From Burkholderiales bacterium (GTDB lineage Bacteria > Pseudomonadota > Gammaproteobacteria > Burkholderiales > CAIKXV01), in NCBI GenBank assembly GCA_014379045.1, contig JACMMK010000128.1:1-33039 (forward strand): a DNA stretch of 33,039 nt, in the 5' to 3' direction. Positions 1 through 31,782 of this stretch are shown in pieces. The position numbers and the translations under genes are program-made. The notes below the pieces were generated by a model. The model had not been told where the DNA came from and ran no database searches. It saw only the letters and a program-made list of their open reading frames with translations. Each line of letters begins with the position of its first letter. Position 1 is the first letter of the stretch.

Positions 1-6
1 AGCATC

Positions 7-660
7 GTGCGGGCCGGCCGGGAAGGGGGCGACAGCGTGCGCCGCGTAGCTGACGCGGGCGCCGAACTCGTGGCGGGCGTCGGCATCGTGCTGCCGGCCA
101 CGTCGGCGATCGCCGCCGGTCTGGACCTCGGCGCTCAGATCTACAGGCAGCTCGCCGCTGTACGTGCGGCGCGGGCGCTCGATGAATCGCTGGAACGAAT
201 GCAGCCGGTGGTCGATCGCGTCACCGAACTGATCGCAGCACAGCTCGACGAGGCACGCGTGATACTCGTCGCGGCGACGCGCATCGGCGAGGTGAAGCTG
301 CGTTCGCAGTTCGCCGACGAGACCGGCTATCTGCTCGCGCTGCGCAAGGAGCGCGTGGCGCTGTATGCACTGACGCCGCTCACATCGGCAAACGTCGAGC
401 GCCTGCTGCAGATCGAGCGCGTCGAGCGCGCGGTACTCGCGCGTCTGGCACCGATGAACACGGAACTGCGCGCCGGCAACCTGCGCCTGCAATCGGCGCT
501 GCAGCTGACCGCCAGCACACGGCAGGCACTCGCCGACTGGTCGCTGGCCCATCGACAACTGCTCGCCTCGGTGCGCGACGGCACGCCGCTCGATCCGCAG
601 GCGCTCACGCAATCGGTGATCGAACTGCGCGAACTCGTGCAGAGGCTGCGAACGCGGTGA
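7..660 (+). CDS. Hypothetical alpha-helical protein, possibly 5'-truncated by the window edge
   Basis: ORF with GTG at 7; the frame stays open to base 1, so the true start may lie upstream. Hydrophobic segment (AELVAGVGIVLPATSAIAAGLDLGAQIY) followed by long predicted helices. Confidence 0.6.
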   Translation: MRAGREGGDSVRRVADAGAELVAGVGIVLPATSAIAAGLDLGAQIYRQLAAVRAARALDESLERMQPVVDRVTELIAAQLDEARVILVAATRIGEVKLRSQFADETGYLLALRKERVALYALTPLTSANVERLLQIERVERAVLARLAPMNTELRAGNLRLQSALQLTASTRQALADWSLAHRQLLASVRDGTPLDPQALTQSVIELRELVQRLRTR

Positions 661-794
661 GCGGTTCAGACACGACGACGTCGATGACGCGCGCACACGG
701 CCTGGTCGAACCAGGCAAGACGAACTGAGATGAGCGCGCCGGCGGGGCTGCAGCCATCGGCACCGGTGAACCCTAACGACTGGCGAGGTATCGA

Positions 795-1334
795 ATGAGC
801 CAAGACACGCGGCAGAGCGCGACCGACGACTGGGACCGCATCGAAGGCATCGAGGGCTGGACGCGCAAGCTGCGCTCGCTGTTGCAGGAAGACGCCGCGC
901 TCGCGGCAAAGGCGAGCGATACCTCGGCTCGGCTCGCGATGAGCGAACGGCTGACGCAGTTCGTCGAGCATTCGTTTCCGAACACCGACGCGATCAAGGC
1001 GCTCGACGCGATCGCGACCCGCGCTGCCATCGGCATGCTCGAACAGACGATTGACGAACGTCTGCGCAGCCTGGTCACGCGCAATCTCGAACTGGCGACG
1101 CTGACCAAGCAGCTCGAAGTCGGCACCGACGACGCGCACACGGCCGCAGCGAGCATCCGCCTGGCGCGCGCAGAGAAGACGCTCACCGCGCTGAACGAGG
1201 GCGTGACGATGCTGCGCGAACTGCGCACCAGTCTGAAGCCGGAGGACGATCGACAACTCGTGGCCAGCATCGACAGGGCGATGCTCGCGACGCAGGCGGT
1301 GCGCGCACTGCTTGAGCGCACCCGGGTCGGGTGA
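795..1334 (+). CDS. Hypothetical all-helical protein
   Basis: ATG start with GAGG-like RBS just upstream (ctggcgaggtatcgaatg). Leu/Ala/Arg-rich helical sequence. Stop overlaps the next start (GTGA). Confidence 0.65.
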   Translation: MSQDTRQSATDDWDRIEGIEGWTRKLRSLLQEDAALAAKASDTSARLAMSERLTQFVEHSFPNTDAIKALDAIATRAAIGMLEQTIDERLRSLVTRNLELATLTKQLEVGTDDAHTAAASIRLARAEKTLTALNEGVTMLRELRTSLKPEDDRQLVASIDRAMLATQAVRALLERTRVG

Positions 1335-2233
1335 CGCGCGACATCGCCCGGTCGAACGCCGTGCCCGGCCCCGCCATCTTCCTGAGCTACCGTCGCGCCG
1401 ACACCGGCGGGTACGCGGGTCGACTCGCGGCGTCGCTCGAACAGCGCTTCGGTCCGGGCAGTGTTTTTCATGACGTGGTGACGATCGCCCCGGGCAAGGA
1501 TTTCGTCCAGGCGATCGAGGGCGCGATCGAACACGCGCAGGTGGTCCTGGTAGTGATCGGCGACACCTGGCTCGACGCCCGGCATGCCGACGGCGGGCCG
1601 CTCCTCGAACGCCCGGACGATTTCGTGCGCATCGAGGCGGCGACCGCGCTTGCTCTCTCGAAACCGGTGTTGCCGCTGCTCGTCGAAGGGGCGAAGATGC
1701 CCGATGAGAAGCGGCTACCCGACAATCTGAAGGCGCTGGCGCGGCAACAAGCGCTCGAGCTCTCCGACAGCCGCTGGGACTACGACTTCGAACGGCTGGT
1801 CGATTCGCTGCGCACCTTGACTGCGCTAACCGGTCCGACGGACGCCGCCGCGCCGCCCAGGCGACGGACGACGCTGCTCGCACTGGCCGCCGGTGCGGCG
1901 CTCACCGTCGCCGCAGCCGTGTACTTCCTGCAACCCGCACGCCCCCCTGACATTACCGGACGCTGGGATTTGCCCACCGGCAGTTTCTGGATCATCGTGC
2001 AGCAGGGCGATCGCTTCACGATCGAGGAAACGCATTACCAGTCCAGGGAGATATGGAAACGCGGAACCGGTACGATCGCCTCCGGACGCTTTGACTTCAC
2101 GCTCGCCTTGGTGTTCGAGCGCCGGGCGCCCGAAACCGGCAGTCTGCGTCTGTCGACCGATGCGCGCACGCTGGCAGGCGAACTGCGCCGCAGCGACGGC
2201 CGGTCCACCCCGATCGCGTTGACTCGTCACTGA
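1331..2233 (+). CDS. TIR domain protein with one TM helix and a C-terminal beta-rich (lipocalin-like) domain
   Basis: N-terminal FLSYRRADTGGYAGRLAASLEQRFG...VFHDVVTIAPGKDF...VVLVVIGDTWL...DDFVRIEAATAL is TIR-like. TM: TTLLALAAGAALTVAAAVYFL. C-terminal DITGRWDLPTGSFWIIVQQGDRFTIEE. Confidence 0.88.
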   Translation: MTRDIARSNAVPGPAIFLSYRRADTGGYAGRLAASLEQRFGPGSVFHDVVTIAPGKDFVQAIEGAIEHAQVVLVVIGDTWLDARHADGGPLLERPDDFVRIEAATALALSKPVLPLLVEGAKMPDEKRLPDNLKALARQQALELSDSRWDYDFERLVDSLRTLTALTGPTDAAAPPRRRTTLLALAAGAALTVAAAVYFLQPARPPDITGRWDLPTGSFWIIVQQGDRFTIEETHYQSREIWKRGTGTIASGRFDFTLALVFERRAPETGSLRLSTDARTLAGELRRSDGRSTPIALTRH

Positions 2234-2296
2234 AATGGCCCAGCCACGCAATGCGCGTTTGACCGTCCGCATTACCCACCCGGCGGATCGAAGCCG

Positions 2297-4288
2297 ATGA
2301 AACCGCACGCGTTCGTCGCGATGCCGTTCGGCATCAAGCCCGGCCACGACGGCATCCCGATCGATTTCAACCGGGTGTTCAGCGAACTGATCCGTCCCGC
2401 GCTGGAACAGGCTGGCTGCGTCGTCTTCCGCGCCGATGAAGAGACGCGCGCCGGCGACATCCGCACCGACATGTTCCAGGAACTGCTGGTGGCGGACCTG
2501 GTGCTCGCCGATCTGACGCTCGACAACCCGAACGTGTGGTACGAACTCGGCGTGCGCCATGCGCTGCGCGCACGCGGCGTGGTGTTGATTCAGGGCCCGC
2601 GACCCACGCAACCGTTCGATATCTACACCGATCGTAAACTGCGCTATTCGGTCAAGGACGGCGGGCCCGACCCGGCAACCGTCGAGACGGATCGGGCGCG
2701 TCTGTCGACGATGGCGCGCGAGACGATCGATGCGAACAGCGCGCGCAAAGTCAGCCCGGTCTACACGCTACTCGATCACCTGCGCGAACCCGAGTGGCGC
2801 GACCTGCTGCTGTCGGAGGACAACGAGTTCAGCCGCGCCTACGAGGCCTGGCGCTCCCGGATGGAAGTCGCGCGTCAGAAGAATCGGGCCGGCGACATTC
2901 TCGTCCTGGCCGAGGAAACACCGACGCAGGCCCTGCAACTCGAAGCGCGGCGCGCGGCGGGCGATTGCCTGATCAAGTTGCGGCACTTCGATTTCGCGCT
3001 CGAACAGTTCGAGGCCGCCCTCGCGCTGGACGATCAGGATCGCAGTGCGCGCCTGAAACGCGCGCTGTGCCTCGCCCGGCTCGGACGCTTCGAAGAGGCG
3101 CGCGAAGAGGTGCGCAGGTTGCGTGACCAGCGCCCGGGCGATCCCGAGATCTGCACCCTGCTCGGACGCATCGAAATGGAGAGCTGGATTCAGCGCTGGC
3201 AGCAGCCCGACCCCGGCGGCGGCGCAACGCCCTCGGGATCGGGTGCCGGCAGCACCACTGCGTCGCTGCGGGCGGCCGCCGCCGCCGAAGAAGCGAGCCT
3301 GTCCGACGCGATCGAACCCTATCGCACCGCGTTCACCCTGCAACCCGCGAACTACTATGCCGGCGTTGCCTGGCTCACCCTTGCGACACTGCATGTGCAC
3401 CTGACCGAACGCGCCGACCCGGCGTTGATCGAACAGGTGCTGGGCGGTGTGCACTGGTCATGCCTGAGCGCGCTCGAGCGCAGTCCGCGCGACTACACGT
3501 CGCGCGCGAGCTACGCGGAGATGTGCCTGCTCTGCTTCGACGCGGGGCGCGTTCGGGAGTCCTGGAGCACCGCGGTCGCCGCCGCCAACCGTGACTGGTT
3601 CGCGCTCGACTCGTCCCGGCAGACGCTTGCGATGTTAAGAGACCTCGAGTTCCGACCGACGGAAACGGCGCTCGCGCTGTCGATCGTCGAGCGCGAGATC
3701 GCGCGTGCGGCACCGCCGTTCCAGCCCCGCCAGGTGTTCGTGTTCAGCGGACACATGATCGATCAGCCGACGCGACCGATACCGAGATTTCCGATGGAAA
3801 AGTCCACTGGGGCGGCCGCACGCATCGGTTCGGCACTCGATCAGTTAAGTGCGGGGCCCGGCGATCTGGCGCTCTGCCAGGCTGCCGCCGGCGGCGATCT
3901 GCTGTTCCTCGAAGCGTGTCAGCAGCGCAGCGTACGCTGCCAGATGATGTTGCCGTTTCCCGAGCCCGATTATATCGAGCGCTCGGTGTTGCCGGCCCAG
4001 GAAGGGGAGTCGTGGCGCGAACGCTACTACGCGGCCAAGCAGAAACTGACCGACCCGCCGAGAATCATGACGGTAGAGATCGGGCCGCTGCCACGAGGCG
4101 CGAACGCGTATGAACGCTGCAATCTCTGGTCGTTGAACACCGCGCTCGCGTGGGGCGTCGAACGCGTGCGTTTCGTCTGCCTGTGGAACGGTATCGGCGG
4201 CGATGGTCCCGGCGGCACCGCCCACATGTACAACGAGGTCAAGCGGCGTACCGGCCGCGTGACCTGGATCGACGTGCGCTCGTTGTGA
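2297..4288 (+). CDS. TPR scaffold protein with N-terminal nucleosidase/TIR-like domain and C-terminal Rossmann-like domain (DUF4071/ASK TRAFs-binding-like)
   Basis: N-term HAFVAMPFGIKPG...ADLVLADLTLDNPNVWYELGVRHALR (nucleoside 2-deoxyribosyltransferase/TIR-like). Middle TPR-like helices (CLIKLRHFDFALEQFEAALALDDQDRSARLKRALCLARLGRFEEA). C-term VFVFSGHMID...GDLALCQAAAGGDLLFLEAC...MMLPFPEPDYIERSV. Confidence 0.8.
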   Translation: MKPHAFVAMPFGIKPGHDGIPIDFNRVFSELIRPALEQAGCVVFRADEETRAGDIRTDMFQELLVADLVLADLTLDNPNVWYELGVRHALRARGVVLIQGPRPTQPFDIYTDRKLRYSVKDGGPDPATVETDRARLSTMARETIDANSARKVSPVYTLLDHLREPEWRDLLLSEDNEFSRAYEAWRSRMEVARQKNRAGDILVLAEETPTQALQLEARRAAGDCLIKLRHFDFALEQFEAALALDDQDRSARLKRALCLARLGRFEEAREEVRRLRDQRPGDPEICTLLGRIEMESWIQRWQQPDPGGGATPSGSGAGSTTASLRAAAAAEEASLSDAIEPYRTAFTLQPANYYAGVAWLTLATLHVHLTERADPALIEQVLGGVHWSCLSALERSPRDYTSRASYAEMCLLCFDAGRVRESWSTAVAAANRDWFALDSSRQTLAMLRDLEFRPTETALALSIVEREIARAAPPFQPRQVFVFSGHMIDQPTRPIPRFPMEKSTGAAARIGSALDQLSAGPGDLALCQAAAGGDLLFLEACQQRSVRCQMMLPFPEPDYIERSVLPAQEGESWRERYYAAKQKLTDPPRIMTVEIGPLPRGANAYERCNLWSLNTALAWGVERVRFVCLWNGIGGDGPGGTAHMYNEVKRRTGRVTWIDVRSL

Positions 4289-4415
4289 GCGCGCCGAGCA
4301 CTACCGGCACGGCGCCCGGTGCGCGTCGCGCCTGCCCTGCTGTCCTGCCGCCCCGCCATCCCGGTCGTAGCCGACCACCCCTGCATCCCTGAACCCCCGC
4401 GAAAAGGAGTCTTCG

Positions 4416-5588
4416 ATGAGCGCAGCCCTGATCGAACGTATTGCAAGTCCCGGCCCGAAGAAGATCCTCGCCTGCGACGGCGGCGGCATTCTCGGCCTGA
4501 TGTCGGTCGAAGTGCTGGCCAAGCTCGAAGCCGACCTGCGCGTCGCACGCGGCGACCCGACCCTCGTTCTTTCGGATTTCTTCGATTTCTGCTGCGGCAC
4601 CAGCACCGGCGCGATCATCGCCACCTGCCTCTCGGCCGGCATGTCGATCGACGAGATCCGCGCGTTCTACGTGGGCAGCGGCAAGCAGATGTTCGACAAG
4701 GCTTCGCTGTTCAAGCGCCTTCGCTTCAACTACAACGACGAACCGCTTGCCCAGAAACTGCGCGTCGAACTCAACCGTGCACTCGGACGCAGCGAAGGTC
4801 CGCCCTTTGCTTCACTCGGCGACGAGAACCTGCGCACGCTGCTGATGATGGTGATGCGCAATCACACCACCGACTCGCCGTGGCCGGTGTCGAACAATCC
4901 CCACGCGCGTTACAACGCAGCGCAACGCGGTGACTGCAACCTCAATCTCCCGCTGTGGAAACTCGTGCGTGCGAGTACCGCTGCGCCGACGTTCTTTCCG
5001 CCCGAAGTCGTGCTTTTCGGGGAAGGTTCGCCCAAAGAGTATTCGTTCATCTTCGTCGATGGCGGCGTGACCACCTACAACAATCCCGCGTTCCTCGCCT
5101 TCCAGATGGCTACCGCCGCTCCCTACCAGGTGAACTGGAAAACCGGCGTCGACCAGATGTTGATCGTGTCGATCGGCACCGGCAGCGCGGCCAAGGCGCG
5201 GCCCGACCTGGCCACCGGTGACCTCAATCTGCTGCATTACGCGACGACGATACCCTCGGCGCTGATGAACGCCGCCTCCGCGGGTTGGGACATGGCCTGC
5301 CGCACGCTCGGCGCGTGCCGTTTCGGCCCGTCGATCGATCGCGAGGTCGGCGACATGACGCTCGCTGAAGGTTCTCCCTCTAACTGGACGGCCGAGAAGC
5401 TGTTCACCTACGTGCGCTACGATCCCGATGTCACCCAGCCCGGGCTCGACGCCCTCGGCCTCTCGTCGATCCAGGCGGCGAACGTGCAGGTGATGGATTC
5501 GGTCGAGTTCATTCCCGACATTCAAGCGGTCGGTAAAGCGTATGCCGAACACCATGTCACCCTCGAGCACGTTCGTCCGTTCGTCTGA
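4416..5588 (+). CDS. Patatin-like phospholipase
   Basis: Oxyanion-hole motif CDGGGILGL, nucleophile motif GTSTG (GxSxG), catalytic Asp motif FVDGGVTTYNNPA. Strong RBS aaaaggag. Confidence 0.93.
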   Translation: MSAALIERIASPGPKKILACDGGGILGLMSVEVLAKLEADLRVARGDPTLVLSDFFDFCCGTSTGAIIATCLSAGMSIDEIRAFYVGSGKQMFDKASLFKRLRFNYNDEPLAQKLRVELNRALGRSEGPPFASLGDENLRTLLMMVMRNHTTDSPWPVSNNPHARYNAAQRGDCNLNLPLWKLVRASTAAPTFFPPEVVLFGEGSPKEYSFIFVDGGVTTYNNPAFLAFQMATAAPYQVNWKTGVDQMLIVSIGTGSAAKARPDLATGDLNLLHYATTIPSALMNAASAGWDMACRTLGACRFGPSIDREVGDMTLAEGSPSNWTAEKLFTYVRYDPDVTQPGLDALGLSSIQAANVQVMDSVEFIPDIQAVGKAYAEHHVTLEHVRPFV

Positions 5589-7248
5589 GCCCGTGAACGT
5601 GCGCGCGACCGGAGTCCGGCGGCGCAGCGCCGAGCGCGACTTGAAGCAGGCGCTTGCGCAGGAGCGTGCGGGACGAGCGATCTTCGTGCGTCAGATCGAT
5701 CCACGACAGCACGCTCGCATCCGCGTCGGGCGCACGCGCCAGCGAACGTTCGGCCAGCGCCCGATCGGTGTTCTCGTCGGCAACGAATACGCAGTCGGCC
5801 ACCCGCCCGACGCCGGCCAGCTGCTGCAGCTCGAATACGCAACCGGCATTCGACGCGGTAAAGCCGCGCAGATCCATCAACACGACCCGGCTGCGCGCCA
5901 CCAGTGCCTGCAGTGTCGGGCGCCACGTGTCGTCGAAACAGAAAAACTCCTCGATGCGGTAACGCCCATCAGGATCGACGCGCGCCTGCTGCAACGCGTG
6001 CAGCCGGGCGGCAAGCCCTGCGCGGTCGGCGACATAGCTCGACTCGATCTCGCCGTGCGCGAACGCCAGTGCCTCGTCGACATCGACCGAGCGCAGCGCG
6101 AGATCGGCGCCGGCGATCATTGCCACCGGCCCGGTGAAGCGCCAGCGCGCGGCCACCGCGTCGAACAATCGCTCGGTACGCTGCTGATGCCCGAACACCC
6201 GCAACAGCAACAGCGCGGGTCCGTCGCCGCGGCGTCCCAGATCGAGCCGACGCAACAGAAGCCTCACCCCGAAGAAGTAGACGACGTACGCCCCTGCCGC
6301 GCACACCAGTGCAGTCGATGGACCGTAGCGCCACAGCGAGGTCAGCCCGAACGCGACGATGACGCCCCACCAGGCATCGGCGAGCAGTTGCATGTCGCTG
6401 AAGCGGCGGGCGCGGTAGCGCGCGGCCAGTGCCCCGGCTGCGCGCCACGCGAACCAGCCGACCGGCAGGCTCGCGCCAAGAATGATCGACGCGGGCCCCG
6501 TGTTCATCGCCAACAGGCGTATCGGCGTCAATTCGAGCGGCTCGGTCCCGGCGAACAGAAGCATGAAACCGTGATAGACGATTGCAATCACCAGCGACAG
6601 CGACATCACCATGACGAGGACGAGCGGCAGCACGTTGCGCAGGCGCGGGCGCCCGGTCAGGTAGACCAGCGCTGCGGGCACCGCGGCAGTCCAACCGAAG
6701 CCCGCGAGAAAATAGCCCGCATTGAGCAGCAGTTCGAGGGTGAGTTCGCGTCCGGTCGCCAGGCGCAGCAGTGCCGGCACCGCCACGGCGAGGACGGTGC
6801 CGATGGCACACACCAACGCGAACCCGAGCCAGGTCTGCCGGCGCTCCGCGTGTACCAGCGCTGCGATGATGAACAGCGCGGCGGCCCAGTTGGGATACCA
6901 CCAGATCGCCGCCCGCAACGCGCCCAGCCCGTCGCTCGACTCGCGCCACAATTCGAACATCGGCGGGGCATGAAGGACTGCTGCGGACAATCCGAACGCC
7001 ACCGCGTACGCGAACACGAGCCCTCGCCGGACCCGTACGTCGTCTTGCGCGTGGGTGGCAAACGCGCGCGCCGGGGGCGGCGGCGCCATCGGCTGCCCGG
7101 CGTCGAAGTCGCGCGCATTCGACACCATGCGCATCGTCCTGGCGAGCGCACGCCGATAGAAACCGAGAAACGCCCACGTGACGAGCAGCGAGACGAGCAA
7201 GCCGCTGGCAAGGGCGTAGAGAATTTCTCCCGACTGTATCGTGGACAT
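5557..7248 (-). CDS. Polytopic membrane protein (about 8 TM) with C-terminal conserved alpha/beta domain
   Basis: Many hydrophobic segments in the N-terminal ~340 aa. C-term RVFGHQQRTERLFDAVAARW...MIAGADLA...DPDGRYRIEEFFCFDDTW...VVLMDLRGFTASNAGCVFELQQL reads like a conserved folded domain. Confidence 0.8.
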   Translation of the reverse strand: MSTIQSGEILYALASGLLVSLLVTWAFLGFYRRALARTMRMVSNARDFDAGQPMAPPPPARAFATHAQDDVRVRRGLVFAYAVAFGLSAAVLHAPPMFELWRESSDGLGALRAAIWWYPNWAAALFIIAALVHAERRQTWLGFALVCAIGTVLAVAVPALLRLATGRELTLELLLNAGYFLAGFGWTAAVPAALVYLTGRPRLRNVLPLVLVMVMSLSLVIAIVYHGFMLLFAGTEPLELTPIRLLAMNTGPASIILGASLPVGWFAWRAAGALAARYRARRFSDMQLLADAWWGVIVAFGLTSLWRYGPSTALVCAAGAYVVYFFGVRLLLRRLDLGRRGDGPALLLLRVFGHQQRTERLFDAVAARWRFTGPVAMIAGADLALRSVDVDEALAFAHGEIESSYVADRAGLAARLHALQQARVDPDGRYRIEEFFCFDDTWRPTLQALVARSRVVLMDLRGFTASNAGCVFELQQLAGVGRVADCVFVADENTDRALAERSLARAPDADASVLSWIDLTHEDRSSRTLLRKRLLQVALGAAPPDSGRAHVHGLRRTDERARG

Positions 7249-7309
7249 CGGTGTCGTCCAGGCGCATAACTGCGCTGAGAGTTCCGCAAACTACCGCGCC
7301 CGAAGACCC

Positions 7310-7534
7310 ATGGCAACCGTCGAATCCAGCGACTCTGCGCCTTCTACAGCGCGACCCTCCGCGTCGGCCGCGGCGAGTGGTCAGGCGATCGCGGACAATG
7401 TCGCGCCGCGCATCCGCGCATCGCGCTGGCTCCCAGGTTGGGCACGCTTCATACTCGCGCTCTGGGCCGTGGTACTGCTTTTGCTCGCGTTTCAACATGT
7501 TTCGCTGATGCTGTTCACTGCATCTGTCGGCTGA
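7310..7534 (+). CDS. Small single-TM protein
   Basis: The ORF track starts at 7241, but an in-frame ATG at 7310 avoids overlap with the divergent gene. TM: WARFILALWAVVLLLLAFQHVSLMLF. Confidence 0.5.
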   Translation: MATVESSDSAPSTARPSASAAASGQAIADNVAPRIRASRWLPGWARFILALWAVVLLLLAFQHVSLMLFTASVG

Positions 7535-7588
7535 CACCCCGCGCTCGTCCCCATCACGGGCAGACCTGAACCGCACCGCACGCTTTCG

Positions 7589-9151
7589 ATGAGCTTCGAC
7601 CGTCACGCTTTCATCAGCTACGCGCACATCGACAATGAACCTCTCACCCCGGAACAGAAGGGGTGGGTGACGCGGTTTCATGCGACGCTTGGTACGATGC
7701 TCAGCCAGCGTATCGGGCAGAAGGCAGACATCTGGCGCGACGATAAGTTGGCCGGCAACGACGTCTTTTCCGAGGAGATCGTCGACCAGTTCGCGCGCAC
7801 GGCACTGCTGATCTCGGTATTGACGCCGCGCTACCTGAAGTCCGAATGGTGTACCCGCGAGATCCGCGAGTTCTGCGCGGCGGCGGAGCGAACCGGCGGC
7901 TTGCTCGTCGACAACAAATGCCGGGTGTTCAAGGTGATCAAGACCCCGGTCGACAGCGAAGCGTGCCTGCCCCCGGTGATCGGCCAGGTACTCGGTTATG
8001 AATTCTTCGCACTCGACGAGGACCAGACGCCCCGCGATCTCGATCCGGTATTCGGCGATGCCTCACGCCAGGAGTTCCTGCGCAAGTTGAACAAGCTCGC
8101 GTGGGACATCGCGCAGTTATGGGAGCAGCTCGACGAACGCAGGACCGCGACCGCGGACGAGGTCGTGACGAACGGTCGCACCGAGGCAGCCACCACGCAG
8201 GCGCCGCGGGGTGTGCGCAAGCCGGCCGTCTTCCTGGCGCAGGTCAGCCGCGATCAGCGCGCCGCGCGCGAGATGATCGAAGCCGGTCTGAAGCGCCACG
8301 GTTATGTCGTGCTGCCCGACCGCCAGTTGCCGCTCGACGAGGAAATGTTCGTCTGCGCAGTGGAGTCGTGTCTGGCGCAGTGTGCATTCTCGATCCACCT
8401 GATCGGCAACGGTTACGGGGTGGTGCCCGACGGCCCCAGCCAGCGCTCGCTCGTCGTGCTGCAGAACGAACTCGCGGCCGCCCACAGCCGCGATCGAGGG
8501 TTGAAACGGCTGATCTGGATCCCGCCGGGCACCGCCGGGGAGCAACCGGCACAGCGGGCATTCATCGCCACGTTGCTCTCCGACGCCAGCGCGCAACTGG
8601 GTGCAGACCTGCTCACCGGAGATATCGAAAGCGTAAAAGGCGCGGTTCATGCTGCGCTTACCCGAATTGAACTCGCGCAGACGACCGAGCGCGCACGTGC
8701 ACCGGCAAACGGCGCCACCGAGTCGCACAAGGCCGTCTACCTGCTGTGCGATGAGCGCGATCGACGCGACATCGTGCCGCTGATTCGTCATTTGCGCAGT
8801 GCCGGCCTGGAGGTGACCACGCCGGTGTTCACCGGCGACGCCGCCACCGTGCGCGAGGCGAATCAGCAACGGCTCGCGACCTGCGATGCGGTGATCCTTT
8901 TTTATGGAGCGGGTGACGAGGCCTGGAAGTATCACCAGGAGAACGAGCTTCGGAAGATGGCCGGCTTGCATGTGTCGCACTCGGCACCGCCGGTCCATCT
9001 TTACGTCTCGGCTCCGGCGAGTCCGGACAAGGAACTGTTGGTTTCGTTGCAGGAGCCGAATCTGATCGACGGGTCGGGCGGCCTGGCGGTCGAAGCCCTC
9101 GCGCCGTTCATCGCGGCATTGCGATCGGGCGACGCGCTTTCATGCCGGTAA
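7589..9151 (+). CDS. Multi-domain TIR protein (TIR plus two further TIR-like modules)
   Basis: TIR: HAFISYAHIDNEPLTPEQKGWVTRFHATL...IWRDDKLAGND...LLISVLTPRYLKSEWCTREIREF. Second module from PAVFLAQVSRDQRAAREMIEAGLKRHGYVVLPD. Third from KAVYLLCDERDRRDIVPLIRHLRSAGLEVTTPVF. Confidence 0.88.
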   Translation: MSFDRHAFISYAHIDNEPLTPEQKGWVTRFHATLGTMLSQRIGQKADIWRDDKLAGNDVFSEEIVDQFARTALLISVLTPRYLKSEWCTREIREFCAAAERTGGLLVDNKCRVFKVIKTPVDSEACLPPVIGQVLGYEFFALDEDQTPRDLDPVFGDASRQEFLRKLNKLAWDIAQLWEQLDERRTATADEVVTNGRTEAATTQAPRGVRKPAVFLAQVSRDQRAAREMIEAGLKRHGYVVLPDRQLPLDEEMFVCAVESCLAQCAFSIHLIGNGYGVVPDGPSQRSLVVLQNELAAAHSRDRGLKRLIWIPPGTAGEQPAQRAFIATLLSDASAQLGADLLTGDIESVKGAVHAALTRIELAQTTERARAPANGATESHKAVYLLCDERDRRDIVPLIRHLRSAGLEVTTPVFTGDAATVREANQQRLATCDAVILFYGAGDEAWKYHQENELRKMAGLHVSHSAPPVHLYVSAPASPDKELLVSLQEPNLIDGSGGLAVEALAPFIAALRSGDALSCR

Positions 9152-11307
9152 CCGGGTCTGAAGGCCTGCGCAGCGCCAGCGACCCGCGACATCAGCCCGG
9201 GTTCAATCCGTTTCCGGGGTTGCGACCGTTCCAGGAACACGAGGAGTATCTGTACTTCGGCCGCGAGCCGCAGGCCGATGCGCTGATCACGAGGCTCGCG
9301 GCAACGCACTTCCTCGCCGTGGTGGGCACGTCGGGGTCGGGCAAATCGTCGCTGGTCAACTGCGGACTGCGCCCTGCCCTCCACCGCGGCCTGATGACCA
9401 GCGCCGGCAGCGCGTGGCGCATGGCGTACCTGCGACCGGGCCTGGCACCGCTGACGTCGCTGGCCGAAGCGCTGGCGGCGCCCAACGTACTCTTTTCATC
9501 GGTCGACACGGGGGAGTTCAGCCAGGCCGAGCTGATCGAAAGCTCGTTGCGGGTGAGCAAACTAGGGCTGATCGATGCGTTCACCCAGGCGCGGCTGCCC
9601 GCGCACACGAACCTGCTGATCGTGGTCGACCAGTTCGAAGAGCTGTTCCGCTATCGCGCGCTGGCTAGCGCCGGCCGGGTCGATGAGGCACGCGTGCGCG
9701 AGGACGCGACCGCGTTCATGAATCTTCTGCTCGAGGTGCCGGAACATCCGAACCTGCCGATCTTCGTCGTGTTGACGATGCGCTCCGACTTTCTCGGCGA
9801 TTGCGCGCAGTTCTTCGGCCTTCCCGAGGCGATCAATCGCGGCCAGTATCTCGTACCCAGGATGACGCGCGAGGAGCGTCGCACCGCGATTTCCGGTCCG
9901 ATCGGTGTCGGCGGCGCGGAGATCGACCCGGTACTGTTGACGCGCCTGGTCAACGACGTCGGTGACAACCCTGATCAGTTGTCCCAACTGCAGCACGCGA
10001 TGAATCGTACGTGGGCCGGGTGGCGCGACGAGTGCGAGCGCGACGCCGGCACCGCCGTGCCAATCAGCCTGCGCCACTACGAGGCAATCGGCACCATCGC
10101 CCAGGCACTGAACCAGCATGCCGAAGAGGCTTTCGACGCGCTTCCGACCATCCGGGCGCAGATGCTGTGCGAAGCGCTGTTCCGGGCGATCACCGACCGT
10201 CGACTCGACGCACGCGGCACCCGTCGACCCACCCGGCTCGACACGCTCTGCGCGATCACCGAGGCCGATGCCGACACGTTGATCGAGGTGATCGACGTCT
10301 TTCGTGATCCGCGCTGTGCATTCCTGATGCCTCCGGCAGGCGAGCCGATCGATGCCGATACCGTGATCGACATCTCGCACGAAAGCCTGATGCGGGTGTG
10401 GACGCGTCTGCGCCAATGGGGCGAGGAGGAAGCGCTGTCGGCGCGCGTGCTACGACGTCTCGCGAAGACCGCGGAACTCAACGCGGCCGGCCAGGCGAAC
10501 CTGCTGCGTAATCCTGAGCTGCAGGTGGCGCTCGATTGGCGCCGCCAGGAAAAACCGAACGAGGCATGGGCCTCGCGCTATCACCCCGTATTGGACGATG
10601 CGCTGAAACTGATCGACGCGAGTCAGGCGATGGTCGAGCATGAAGAAGCGGAGGACGCGCGCAGGCGTGCCGAGGAAGCCCACCTGCGGGCGGAGATCGC
10701 GCATTCGGGTCGCCGCCGCCGCTTCTGGATGGGAGCAACGACGCTGTTCATTCTCGTCGTCACTATCGGCTCGTACTTCGTCTATCTGCAACAGAAGGCG
10801 ATCAGCGCCGAGCGGGCGGCGTTCGAAAGCGAAAAGACCGCCCTCGCCGCGAAGATTGCCTTCGAGGCGGAGCGCTCGCGCGTGAGAATCCTGGACGCCG
10901 AAAGCAGGGACGCCCAGAACCAGCTCGCCGCGGCATACCAAGCGGCGCCAAATCTGGTGAAAGGGGTGTCGGGCGCACCTGCCACCGCGACAGTGGTTTA
11001 TCTGCAAGTTCCTGCCGGACAGAATCGCGCTGAGGCGCAATCGGTGCAGAAACAATTGCAGGGCGCCGGGTACAAAGCGCCCGGCGTCGAGGGGGTGAGC
11101 GTCAGCCCACGAAATTTCGAGCTACGCTATTTCCGCGAAGAAGATGAGAACAGTGCGCGCAAGGTGGCCGAACTGGTGCGTAGATGGACTTCAAGCGACC
11201 TGCGTCTGGTCCGCGTTCCCGGCTTCGAGACGCGCTCGCGATTGCAGCAGTTCGAGCTCTGGTTTCCTGCGCAGGACGCCGCTGCGCCAGCGCGCACGCG
11301 GAACTGA
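9142..11307 (+). CDS. nSTAND1-type NTPase with TM helix and C-terminal LytR_C-like domain
   Basis: NPFPGLRPFQEHEEYLYFGREPQADALITRL preceding Walker A GTSGSGKSS; Walker B LLIVVDQFEELFR; TM FWMGATTLFILVVTIGSYFVYL; C-term VVYLQVPAGQNRAEAQSVQKQLQGAGYKA. Confidence 0.9.
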   Translation: MPVTGSEGLRSASDPRHQPGFNPFPGLRPFQEHEEYLYFGREPQADALITRLAATHFLAVVGTSGSGKSSLVNCGLRPALHRGLMTSAGSAWRMAYLRPGLAPLTSLAEALAAPNVLFSSVDTGEFSQAELIESSLRVSKLGLIDAFTQARLPAHTNLLIVVDQFEELFRYRALASAGRVDEARVREDATAFMNLLLEVPEHPNLPIFVVLTMRSDFLGDCAQFFGLPEAINRGQYLVPRMTREERRTAISGPIGVGGAEIDPVLLTRLVNDVGDNPDQLSQLQHAMNRTWAGWRDECERDAGTAVPISLRHYEAIGTIAQALNQHAEEAFDALPTIRAQMLCEALFRAITDRRLDARGTRRPTRLDTLCAITEADADTLIEVIDVFRDPRCAFLMPPAGEPIDADTVIDISHESLMRVWTRLRQWGEEEALSARVLRRLAKTAELNAAGQANLLRNPELQVALDWRRQEKPNEAWASRYHPVLDDALKLIDASQAMVEHEEAEDARRRAEEAHLRAEIAHSGRRRRFWMGATTLFILVVTIGSYFVYLQQKAISAERAAFESEKTALAAKIAFEAERSRVRILDAESRDAQNQLAAAYQAAPNLVKGVSGAPATATVVYLQVPAGQNRAEAQSVQKQLQGAGYKAPGVEGVSVSPRNFELRYFREEDENSARKVAELVRRWTSSDLRLVRVPGFETRSRLQQFELWFPAQDAAAPARTRN

Positions 11308-11345: not shown

Positions 11346-11783
11346 TCAGTGGTAAAGCGCCCGCTCGACCGTGGAGGCAACAGGACTCTCTTCCATCCCC
11401 AGCGAACGCCACCGCTTGATCCCACCCGACAGTTCCAGGACCTTCAATCCCCGCAACGACAGCAGATGGGCTGCGCGCGCCGACAACGTGCTCCATTCGT
11501 CCCAGCAATACACCACCATGGTCGCGTCCGAGGGCAATTGACGCCACCTGACCTCGAGTTCTTCGACCGACAGGATGCGCGCATCAGGCAACGTGCTGCG
11601 CAACATTTCCTTGGGGCTATTGCGCACATCGATGACGATCAGCTTGTCACCCAGGCGTTTTCGCAACCCCGCTAGGGCTGCGGGCTCGATCGTACTTATT
11701 TCGACGGACCGTTGGTCGGCGCGAACGCAACGCGGAGCCGAACCGCTCACCATTACTTCCAGACCCTTCCATGTGTCCATCAT
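11346..11783 (-). CDS. Rhodanese-like domain protein
   Basis: LIVIDVRNSPKEML...ARILSVEELEVRW...MVVYCWDEWSTLSARAAHLLSLRGLKVLELSGGIKRW. Confidence 0.85.
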   Translation of the reverse strand: MMDTWKGLEVMVSGSAPRCVRADQRSVEISTIEPAALAGLRKRLGDKLIVIDVRNSPKEMLRSTLPDARILSVEELEVRWRQLPSDATMVVYCWDEWSTLSARAAHLLSLRGLKVLELSGGIKRWRSLGMEESPVASTVERALYH

Positions 11784-15640: not shown

Positions 15641-16666
15641 ATGATCATGCGATGTTACCGACCTTCGAAGCGTTCCGGCGTCCTGCGGCGTCATGCGCTG
15701 TCACTCGCAGGTCTCGCTGCAATGCTCGGGTCGGTCCTGCCCCGCGCCGGTCCGGTGTTTGCCCAAGCCTGGCCGTTGAAGCCCGTTCGCATCGTCCACG
15801 GCTTCGCGCCGGGCAGCGCGATCGACGTGTCGATCCGGCCTCTCGCCGCGCAACTTTCCGAACAGTTCGCGCAGACCTTCTCGGTGGAGCCGCGCCCGGG
15901 TGCGACGGGTCAGCTCGCCAACGAACTCGTATCGAAGTCGACCCCGGATGGTTATGTGCTGCTAGCTGCACCCGGCACCTCGCTCACTTCGGCGCCACAG
16001 TTGCAGAAGGCGCCTTACGATCCTCTGAAGGACTTCGCGCCGGTCGCGATGATTACCGCGTTCTCGTACCTGCTCGTCGCGCATCCCGCCGTTCCCGCGA
16101 AGAGCGCGCGCGAACTCGTCGCGCTCGCGCGTGCGAAGCCCGGCTACCTCACGTTCGGCTCCACTGGCATCGGCAGCGGCTTCCATCTGGCCGGTGAACT
16201 GTTCGCCTCGCTCGCCGGCGTCAAGCTCGTCCATGTCCCGTACCGGGGTGGAGGCAGCGCCGCGATGCCCGATCTGGTCAGTGGACGGGTCGACCTGATG
16301 TGGGACAGCTACGGCACCGTGCGCACGCAGGTATTGGCCGGCAAGCTGCGCGCGATCGGCGTGACCGGCGCGACCCGCATCGCGGCACTCGCCGACGTGC
16401 CGACGATCGCCGAGAGCGGGCTCCCGGGCTACGACCTGGTCGGCTGGCACGGAGTGCTCGCACCTGGCGGTGCCTCCCGAGAGGTCGTCGAGCGCCTGAA
16501 CACCACGATCAACCGAACACTCGATCGCGCCGATCTGCGCGCGCTCTGGACCCAGCAGGGTTTCGAGACGCCGCAGCTGACGCCCGAGCAGTTCGACCAG
16601 CGTATCCGCCGCGACTTCGAGTTGTACGGAAAGCTTATCAAGACGATCGGCCTGCGCGCCCAATGA
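15641..16666 (+). CDS. Bug/TctC family tripartite tricarboxylate transporter substrate-binding protein
   Basis: Signal peptide, WPLKPVRIVHGFAPGSAIDVSIRPLA, PYDPLKDFAPVAMI, VHVPYRGGGSAAMPDLVSGRVDLMWD. Confidence 0.93.
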   Translation: MIMRCYRPSKRSGVLRRHALSLAGLAAMLGSVLPRAGPVFAQAWPLKPVRIVHGFAPGSAIDVSIRPLAAQLSEQFAQTFSVEPRPGATGQLANELVSKSTPDGYVLLAAPGTSLTSAPQLQKAPYDPLKDFAPVAMITAFSYLLVAHPAVPAKSARELVALARAKPGYLTFGSTGIGSGFHLAGELFASLAGVKLVHVPYRGGGSAAMPDLVSGRVDLMWDSYGTVRTQVLAGKLRAIGVTGATRIAALADVPTIAESGLPGYDLVGWHGVLAPGGASREVVERLNTTINRTLDRADLRALWTQQGFETPQLTPEQFDQRIRRDFELYGKLIKTIGLRAQ

Positions 16667-25494: not shown

Positions 25495-25513
25495 CCACCG
25501 CCGGGTGCTCTCG

Positions 25514-26479
25514 ATGAACCGCCTTCTCGTCCTGCTTCTCGCCGCCCCGATCGCCACGGTCGCGACCTGCGCGCTCGCGCAAGGCTATCCCGCGAAACCT
25601 GTGCGTCTGATCCTCGCGTATCCGCCCGGGGGAGCCACCGACACGCTCGGCAGGATCATCGGCAAGGCGCTGTCGGAGACCTGGGGCCAAAGCGTCATTG
25701 CGGACAATCGCCCGGGCGCGAGTGGCAGCATCGGCACGACCCTGTGCGTGAAGTCTCCGCCCGACGGCTACACGATGTGCACGGTCTCGGTCGCTCAGAG
25801 CACCGCATCGCGTATGTCCGCCAACGCGGGCTTCGATTCGCTCAAGGACTTCTCGCATGTGTCGCTGATCGCCACGATGCCGATGATGCTGCTCGTGCAT
25901 CCGTCGCTGCCGGTGAAGAATGTCGCGCAGCTCGTCACGCTCGCGAGGAAGAACCCCGGCGCGCTCAGCTACGCCTCCAGTGGCGGCGGCGCCGGCCCTC
26001 ACCTGGCCGCGGAACTGTTCAAGCAGCTGGCGGGCATCGATATCCTGTCGGTCACGTACAAGGGCGCGGGCGCCCAGCTGACCGACCAGCTCGCCGGACG
26101 CGTCGAGGTCGCCTTCGCACCCGCCGTCGGCTTCGTGTCGTTCGTGAAGGAAGGCAAGCTGCGCGCGCTGGCGGTGTCGACCCGGCAACGTTTCCCGCTG
26201 TTTCCCGACGTGCCCTCGATCAGCGAGTCGGGAATTCCGAAGTACGACGCGAGTTCGTGGCAGGGACTGTCGATGCCCGCCGGCGTGCCACGCGATATCG
26301 TCAACCGGGTCAGTGCTGACGCCAATCGTGCGCTGAAGACGCCAGCGATCCGTGATCGCATCCTTGAACTGGGTGGCATCGCCGGCGGCAACACGCCGGA
26401 AGAGTTCTCCGCCTTCTTTCAGACGGAATCGGACAAGTGGTATCAGGTCGCCCGCGCCGCGAAGGTGGTGACCGAATGA
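25514..26479 (+). CDS. Bug/TctC family substrate-binding protein (paralog of the 30694 gene)
   Basis: YPAKPVRLILAYPPGGATDTLGRII, NRPGASGSIGTTL, LTDQLAGRVEVAF. GTG alternative start at 25505. Confidence 0.94.
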   Translation: MNRLLVLLLAAPIATVATCALAQGYPAKPVRLILAYPPGGATDTLGRIIGKALSETWGQSVIADNRPGASGSIGTTLCVKSPPDGYTMCTVSVAQSTASRMSANAGFDSLKDFSHVSLIATMPMMLLVHPSLPVKNVAQLVTLARKNPGALSYASSGGGAGPHLAAELFKQLAGIDILSVTYKGAGAQLTDQLAGRVEVAFAPAVGFVSFVKEGKLRALAVSTRQRFPLFPDVPSISESGIPKYDASSWQGLSMPAGVPRDIVNRVSADANRALKTPAIRDRILELGGIAGGNTPEEFSAFFQTESDKWYQVARAAKVVTE

Positions 26480-30693: not shown

Positions 30694-31782
30694 TCAGTCG
30701 AGGGTGACATTGGCCGCGCGCGCCACCTTGAACCACTTGTCCGACTCCGCCTGGAAGAACGCGGCGAACTCCTCGGGCGTGCTGCCGACGACGATGCCAC
30801 CCATCTCGATGATCCGGTCGCGTACTTCGGGCGTCCTCAGTGCGCGCGTCATGTCCGCGTTGACGCGGTGGACGATGTCGCGCGGAACGCCCGCCGGCAT
30901 CGCGATGCCCTGCCAGGAACTGCCGACGACGCCTTTTTGCCCCGACTCGTCCAGCGTCGGGACGTTGGGCAGCGCGGGCAGGCGCTGCGCAGTCGAGACT
31001 GCGATAGGTCGCAGGCGGCCATCGCGCACATACGGCATCAGTCCAACGGACAGATTGAACGCAAGTTCGACCCGCCCCGCCAGCTGATCGGTCAATTGAC
31101 CGCCGCCGGTGCCTTTGTAGGTCATCAGCACGATATCGAGGCCGGCGCGTTGTTTCAGCATTTCCATCATCAGCTGCGGCGTGGCCCCGCCACCGCTCGA
31201 CGCGTAATTCAGCGCGCCGGGGCGTCGCTTGGCCAGCGCGACCAGATCGGCAACGCTCTTCACCGGAAGAGACGGGTGAACGAGCAGCAGCAGCGGCAGC
31301 TCAGTGACGAGCGTGACGTGCGAGAAGTCCTTCAGCGAATCGAAGCCGGCGTTGGACGACAGACGTGACGCCACCGACTGCGCCGGCGATACCGAACACA
31401 TCGTGTAACCGTCCGGCGCCGCGCGCACACACAGCGTGGTACCGATGTTGCCGCCCGCGCCGGGGCGGTTCTCGACGATCACCGGCACCGGCCACGTGTC
31501 GCTCAGGGTCTTGGCCATCATCCGTCCGAGTACGTCGGTCGAGCCCCCGGGCGGGTAGGAAAGAATCATCCGCGCGGGCTTCGACGGGTAGGCGACCTGC
31601 GCTTGCGCCCAGCCCGCCGGAATCGATGTCGAGAACACGAGCACCGAAAGCGCGCGCAATAGGCGCCTTGCCGCAAGCGACCGAACGCTCGGCCGCGCGT
31701 TCCTGCCAGGCGGGCGACGCGCGACGCCGCGCACGCGCAAACGCCGCGCGCAGTTTCCTTCGGTGCAGAACATCATTAGCAT
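30694..31782 (-). CDS. Bug/TctC family substrate-binding protein (paralog of the 25514 gene)
   Basis: YPSKPARMILSYPPGGSTDVLGRMMAKTLSDTW, NRPGAGGNIGTTL, TYKGTGGGQLTDQLAGRVELAF. Track extends to 32187; start trimmed to avoid the divergent hydantoinase gene. Confidence 0.92.
   Translation of the reverse strand: MLMMFCTEGNCARRLRVRGVARRPPGRNARPSVRSLAARRLLRALSVLVFSTSIPAGWAQAQVAYPSKPARMILSYPPGGSTDVLGRMMAKTLSDTWPVPVIVENRPGAGGNIGTTLCVRAAPDGYTMCSVSPAQSVASRLSSNAGFDSLKDFSHVTLVTELPLLLLVHPSLPVKSVADLVALAKRRPGALNYASSGGGATPQLMMEMLKQRAGLDIVLMTYKGTGGGQLTDQLAGRVELAFNLSVGLMPYVRDGRLRPIAVSTAQRLPALPNVPTLDESGQKGVVGSSWQGIAMPAGVPRDIVHRVNADMTRALRTPEVRDRIIEMGGIVVGSTPEEFAAFFQAESDKWFKVARAANVTLD

Follow-up and report, generated by a model that had tools for sequence, protein, structure and literature searches.

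The window analysed here is a stretch of 33,039 nt which represents an entire contig (C273) of a 3.84-Mb draft genome (G000) of Burkholderiales type, and the carrier of the gene cluster is a freshwater-type bacterium. Its left 11.3 kb (1-11,307) is filled by eight genes (g1-g8; Table 1), whose domains were assigned using Pfam, PADLOC and NCBIfam. The eight proteins described for this region in the initial annotation were all present as described, and homologues were found elsewhere for every one of them. Both TIR proteins, the TPR scaffold (a TPR-S protein), the patatin and the nSTAND1 NTPase which had been named there were recovered by profile matches, and a C-terminal SPOR domain was added to the last. 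The two helical proteins are also there, but the first is a lipoprotein whose 5' end is missing at the contig start. To the right of 11.3 kb, the translations indicate ordinary metabolic, transport and regulatory genes. The translations also include three Bug/TctC-like solute receptors; several such receptors per contig are common in Burkholderiales. A 97-aa ORF with a hydrophobic segment is located between g6 and g7 and is divergent from g6. ARAGORN called a tRNA-Ala(cgc), which was judged probably a false positive because it lies inside the conserved gene g6.

Table 1 Features of the 33,039-nt window (residue ranges refer to the protein)
Feature	Position	Strand	Description
g1	1..660	+	Helical envelope lipoprotein, 5'-truncated by the contig start; homologues in L130 and L140
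g2	795..1334	+	Helical partner of g1; homologues in L130 and L140
g3	1331..2233	+	TIR domain (TIR_2, 8e-14), one TM helix (182-200) and predicted periplasmic C-terminal domain
g4 (hub)	2297..4288	+	DRHyd/TIR-like N domain (~1-120), TPR/TPR-S array (PF20308, 3.6e-16), C-terminal alpha/beta domain (~475-663)
g5	4416..5588	+	Patatin-like phospholipase (Pfam Patatin, 2.7e-22)
g6	5557..7248	-	Polytopic membrane protein with cytosolic TIR/DRHyd-like alpha/beta domain (~345-520); convergent with g5
tRNA-Ala(cgc)	6937..7022	-	ARAGORN call, probably a false positive
97-aa ORF	7241..7534		Hydrophobic segment
g7	7589..9151	+	TIR protein (TIR_2, 6e-10), apparently with three TIR-like domains; opens a separate two-gene module
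g8	9142..11307	+	nSTAND1 NTPase (1.7e-85, 288 bits), TM helix 531-549, C-terminal SPOR domain
Rhodanese gene	11346..11783	-	Bounds the variable site on the right; synteny conserved in congeners whether or not they have the cluster
Bug/TctC-like receptor	15641..16666
Bug/TctC-like receptor	25505..26479
Bug/TctC-like receptor	30694..31644

The g3 protein is a predicted NADase or signal maker. When its family profile was compared with the SARM1 NAD+ hydrolase, a match at 4e-13 was obtained with the catalytic Glu aligned; this residue (Glu102) is intact in g3 and aligns with the SARM1 Glu in D-W-V-x-K-E. The predicted executioner is g5, which matched a CBASS-effector profile at 8e-40 and CapV at 3.7e-11. 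Its Ser63 and Asp215 are intact, at least 95 % conserved over 30 relatives, and align with those of patatin-17 and CapV.

The TPR-S domain of the hub scored 60.1 bits against a cut-off of 27.6, and the N domain is DRHyd/TIR-like (PADLOC TIR effector profile, 1.9e-6), with E83 conserved at the DRHyd/TIR motif position. The AlphaFold model of the hub is confident (pLDDT 89, pTM 0.87) and shows a TPR array between two alpha/beta domains, one at either terminus. The C domain contains the motifs FSGH, GGDLLF and DGPGGT; as no solved relative of it was found by profile search, it is from these motifs and the predicted alpha/beta order that we infer a SLOG/LOG-like domain. Foldseek with the whole hub model returned TPR matches only, and searches with the C domain otherwise gave weak esterase matches.

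In the case of g6, homologues are found at 10 further loci with the hub, and E473, at the DRHyd/TIR motif position, is invariant. Its model is of low confidence (pLDDT 61) and has a Rossmann-like C domain. When this model was searched with Foldseek, no significant match was obtained and a plant TIR appeared at rank 20. When profiles of the C domain of g6, of both terminal hub domains (N and C) and of TIR were aligned with one another, nothing significant was obtained; the sole pair that aligned at the expected D..N..E motif was g6 and the hub N domain (E-value 0.0099, probability 4 %, not significant).

The second domain of g7 matched DUF4062 weakly and below threshold (0.0023; 18.5 bits against a cut-off of 24.7), and the third, apparently also TIR-like, was read by eye. 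Homologues of g7 in L138 (53 %) and L139 (29 %) each overlap an nSTAND1 gene, and these homologous g7-g8 pairs, from genomes G217 and G024, consist of overlapping genes with nSTAND1-TM-WD40-type partners. The SPOR domain of g8 (22.9 bits against the Pfam cut-off of 21) follows the TM helix at the place where the partners in L138 and L139 have WD40-type repeats. It is predicted to be periplasmic by the positive-inside rule, and TM plus SPOR in place of the sensor repeats suggests envelope sensing. The pair would constitute a second, separable sensor/NADase module.

We considered g1 a lipoprotein because its full-length homologues have a lipobox. These are encoded in L130 (65 % identity, lipobox LAAMTGC) and in L140 (35 %, LAGC), where the gene adjoins a TPR-S::patatin gene; no further g1 homologues were found at class level. 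The g2 homologue in L130 (63 %) immediately follows that of g1, and a 168-aa g2-like gene follows the g1 homologue in L140. Together, g1 and g2 may act as an envelope accessory pair.

When the site was compared among congeners, using orthologues of the flanking rhodanese/TetR genes and the genes on the opposite side, different contents were observed. The site is empty in G002 and G004, and contains g1-g2 alone in G008 (L130:8388-9632), the hub alone in G009, hub and g6 in G010, and TIR-TM, hub and g6 in G003. The hub adjoins the rhodanese gene in G006, and a short contig of G001 carries TIR-TM, hub and g6. The complete set g1-g8 is found in the studied stretch, as against sub-sets or nothing in the congeners, and these differing sub-sets at one site point to an island built from modules. 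The pair g7-g8 is missing from the congeneric loci and is a two-gene module of its own elsewhere. Thus, the earlier claim that all 11 kb form one system was dropped, an indivisible 11-kb system being ruled out by this comparison. The expected recurrence in unrelated genomes was borne out, as TIR, TPR-S hub, patatin and membrane protein are found together in L086 and L088. The core common to other genomes consists of g3 (TIR-TM), g4 (hub), g5 (patatin) and g6 (membrane protein).

Hub orthologues in five congeners are 72-76 % identical. A scan of GTDB genomes yielded 194 hub relatives, of which the best 80, nearly all full length, were retained (48-76 % in the best segment). These best 80 belong to Beta-/Gammaproteobacteria, Nitrospira, Synechococcus, Chlorobi and Acidobacteria. 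Within the order the hub is sporadic, with a match in 17 of 299 genomes, some to the C domain alone. No hub relatives were found in phages, and solely the C-domain part was found in plasmids, in Rhizobium. On a conjugative plasmid of Rhizobium leguminosarum, a single stretch (L159; CP050566.1, 26531-41256) contains genes for a CAP12-type TIR, the C domain of the hub, TPR-S proteins, SLATT, a muramidase, a patatin and DUF4071. Five genomes encode the C domain as a stand-alone protein (~190-210 aa), and most of these have caspase/CHAT-giant genes or a gene for TIR-TM or patatin nearby; in L036, a g3 homologue adjoins such a stand-alone domain, a caspase and a CHAT gene.

Gene calls around the hubs came from a simple ORF procedure. 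Among 84 hub loci, the recurring neighbours were patatin (30), a caspase of ~280 aa (24) and a CHAT giant (27), a DUF7379-hydrolase-CHAT-TPR-S protein of ~1860 aa; caspase and giant occurred together in 19. Other neighbours were the g6 family (11), nSTAND1-WD40 (7), TIR-TM (6, strict cluster) and SLATT/DUF4231 (5), and a TIR gene was detected by HMM at 16 of 80 hub loci. Around hubs, 30 patatin genes were counted in 1.46 Mb where 1.3 would be expected, an enrichment of ~22-fold; for nSTAND1 it was ~90- to 93-fold (8; 0.09 expected). These values are approximate as the background (187 patatins and 12 strong nSTAND1 matches in 205 Mb) is from one order and the loci are from several phyla. At 15 of the 27 patatin loci, the patatin gene is the immediate same-strand neighbour of the hub. 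On the hub tree, a quick tree with many open forks, the labels patatin and caspase/CHAT changed at least 15 times. Neither gene type was in reach at 26 of 80 hub loci, more than half of them with near-complete flanks and several at contig ends. Thus, the hub may work unaided or with partners encoded elsewhere in the genome.

At a single chromosomal site in Nitrospira, the hub is retained and the effector genes are swapped between species. Patatin is found in L104, TIR and patatin in L079, caspase and CHAT in L061 and L109, and TIR, caspase, patatin and DUF4062 in L085.

TPR-S is physically tied to both executioner types, as it is fused to patatin as well as to CHAT. Locus L140 (genome G176) encodes a 940-aa fusion of TPR-S (105-207) and patatin (352-624), and the CHAT giant of many hub loci has TPR-S at its end. 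The L140 operon (4142-10464) contains genes for DRHyd-TPR-S, the fusion, the g1-like lipoprotein and the g2-like protein, with a convergent M15 peptidase gene; homologues of g1-g2 are therefore found within a TPR-S/patatin operon of another family. Peptidoglycan hydrolase genes (M15-type, muramidase) were seen beside hub, TPR-S or patatin genes in L102 (18360-19205), L140 (9850-10464) and L159 (10269-11117), a pattern suggestive of a joint attack on wall and membrane.

We give somewhat better than even chances to the locus being a defence island that occupies a variable site, with a core, g3-g6, that is an abortive-infection system in which the signal passes from TIR to hub to patatin. The domains, intact catalytic residues, co-conservation, TPR-S fusions, effector exchange and site polymorphism come from the sequences; beyond these, we infer the trigger, the identity of the messenger, its binding by the hub, the contact between hub and patatin, and phage protection. 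Membrane-anchored g3 would react to an envelope-linked trigger and convert NAD+ into a messenger, perhaps joined in this by the DRHyd/TIR-like domains of g4 and g6. The hub would bind the messenger via TPR-S, via the SLOG-like domain at its C terminus or via both, and the messenger-bound hub would license the patatin to degrade the host membrane. If the DRHyd-like domain of the hub is itself an enzyme, which it could be, g3 would be dispensable. The co-conservation of effectors with the hub, their exchange and the TPR-S fusions support this order of a TIR signal, a TPR-S receptor and an interchangeable executioner. The alignment of the TIR Glu with SARM1, the gene combinations in L086, L088, L036 and the Rhizobium plasmid, and the polymorphism of the site also speak for it. 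The 26 hub loci lacking both executioner types, the detection of TIR at no more than 16 of 80 loci and the failure to find a solved relative of the C domain speak against it.

Nearly even chances are given to g1-g2, g3-g6 and g7-g8 being separate systems at a common integration site, with no cross-talk. The different sub-sets in the congeners, the site being empty in two of them, and the occurrence of g7-g8 alone elsewhere agree with this. However, nSTAND1 and TIR genes adjoin hubs generally, nSTAND1 far above background, and the g1-g2 homologues in L140 accompany TPR-S and patatin. Separate modules can be reconciled with the reading of g3-g6 given above, and the two confidences are not exclusive.

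It is unlikely, in our opinion, that the hub is a scaffold which, after a trigger, assembles TIR, membrane protein and patatin at the membrane by protein contacts, with NAD+ depletion and lysis in parallel and no diffusible messenger. TPR arrays are classical protein-binding scaffolds, the fold matches of the hub model were all TPR, and TIR homologues such as SARM1 and DUF4062 (Swarozyc; PMC13174449) act as NADase executioners. However, many hub loci have patatin or caspase and no TIR in reach, TPR-S is fused straight to effectors without TIR, and the hub has two additional alpha/beta domains of nucleotide-binding type. A regulated lysis or programmed-death cassette that serves a purpose other than phage defence, such as a response to predation or envelope damage or a role in kin discrimination, would fit the envelope theme (lipoprotein, TM-TIR, SPOR and the peptidoglycan hydrolases of related loci), but is improbable given that anti-phage islands are typically patchy, lie at variable sites and keep TIR/STAND/caspase/CHAT company (see PMC7159879, PMC8195603).

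Starting again from the TIR-hub-patatin reading, we tentatively propose, as a possibility on the doubtful side, a plug-in architecture. A DRHyd-like, TPR-S and SLOG-like receptor would read a TIR-made NAD+ derivative and drive either a membrane lipase or a caspase/CHAT cascade, with one executioner replacing the other at a given locus in the course of evolution. In the present island it would be coupled to a membrane-spanning STAND protein whose periplasmic SPOR domain senses denuded peptidoglycan. If true, bacteria would have a receptor of NAD+-derived signals which is separate from the executioner and common to lipases and caspase/CHAT proteases, and different death effectors could be tried in turn with a single messenger-receptor pair. 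One protein of L086 combines TPR-S with MAP3K_TRAF_bd, a Pfam region of animal ASK kinases, so the proposed bacterial origin of the ASK signalosome would also become testable. Sensing of infection from outside the cytoplasm through a peptidoglycan-binding domain that a STAND NTPase exposes to the periplasm would be unusual.

When the cluster was compared with known systems, PADLOC returned single-protein effector matches only, in agreement with the initial annotation, which had seen no CD-NTase, ThsA, Cas or REase component. The g5 protein resembles the effector of CapV-containing CBASS in its patatin fold, catalytic dyad and CapV-type profile matches. However, no CD-NTase (SMODS, PF18144) was found in the cluster or in genome G000 (~85 % complete), and CBASS was ruled out on this basis. 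No Cas protein was found among the eight proteins using PADLOC and NCBIfam.

In Thoeris types I-IV, a TIR-made messenger activates a SIR2-SLOG, TM-macro or caspase effector (PMC12847820). The cluster is similar in that a TIR NADase is the presumed messenger source for a nucleotide-gated effector, and the caspase option of related hub loci recalls type IV. It differs in that the receptor would be a separate TPR-S hub and the executioner a patatin; the eight proteins contain no ThsA-type effector (SIR2-SLOG, TM-macro) and no type IV caspase domain. With the TIR profiles ThsB and ThcB4, weak matches were obtained, that to ThcB4 being far below its curated cut-off.

DUF4062 (Swarozyc) is a TIR-like NADase in defence (PMC13174449). 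The NADase logic is shared, and a DUF4062-TPR gene is present in hub locus L085, whereas g7 has a sub-threshold DUF4062 match and is paired with an nSTAND1 NTPase. With the nSTAND1 conflict systems (domain defined in PMC8195603; see also PMC10907252), g7-g8 shares the nSTAND1 core, the N-side TIR partner and a C-terminal sensor, but g8 has TM and SPOR where those have WD40-type repeats or FGE-type lectin domains.

No description of this gene set was found in the literature that was searched. The label "undescribed" in the initial annotation is nevertheless right in part only, since TPR-S conflict systems were reportedly predicted by Burroughs and Aravind in 2020 (J Bacteriol 202:e00365-20), with TPR-S as a sensor of NAD+ signals. 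The cluster resembles these systems in TPR-S as predicted sensor, in TIR/DRHyd/SLOG-class domains and in threshold-activated effectors. It contains a TPR-S protein with linked TIR/DRHyd domains, namely the adjacent g3 and the N domain of the hub, and TIR, DRHyd and SLOG domains belong to one class which processes or senses nucleotides (PMC9503650).
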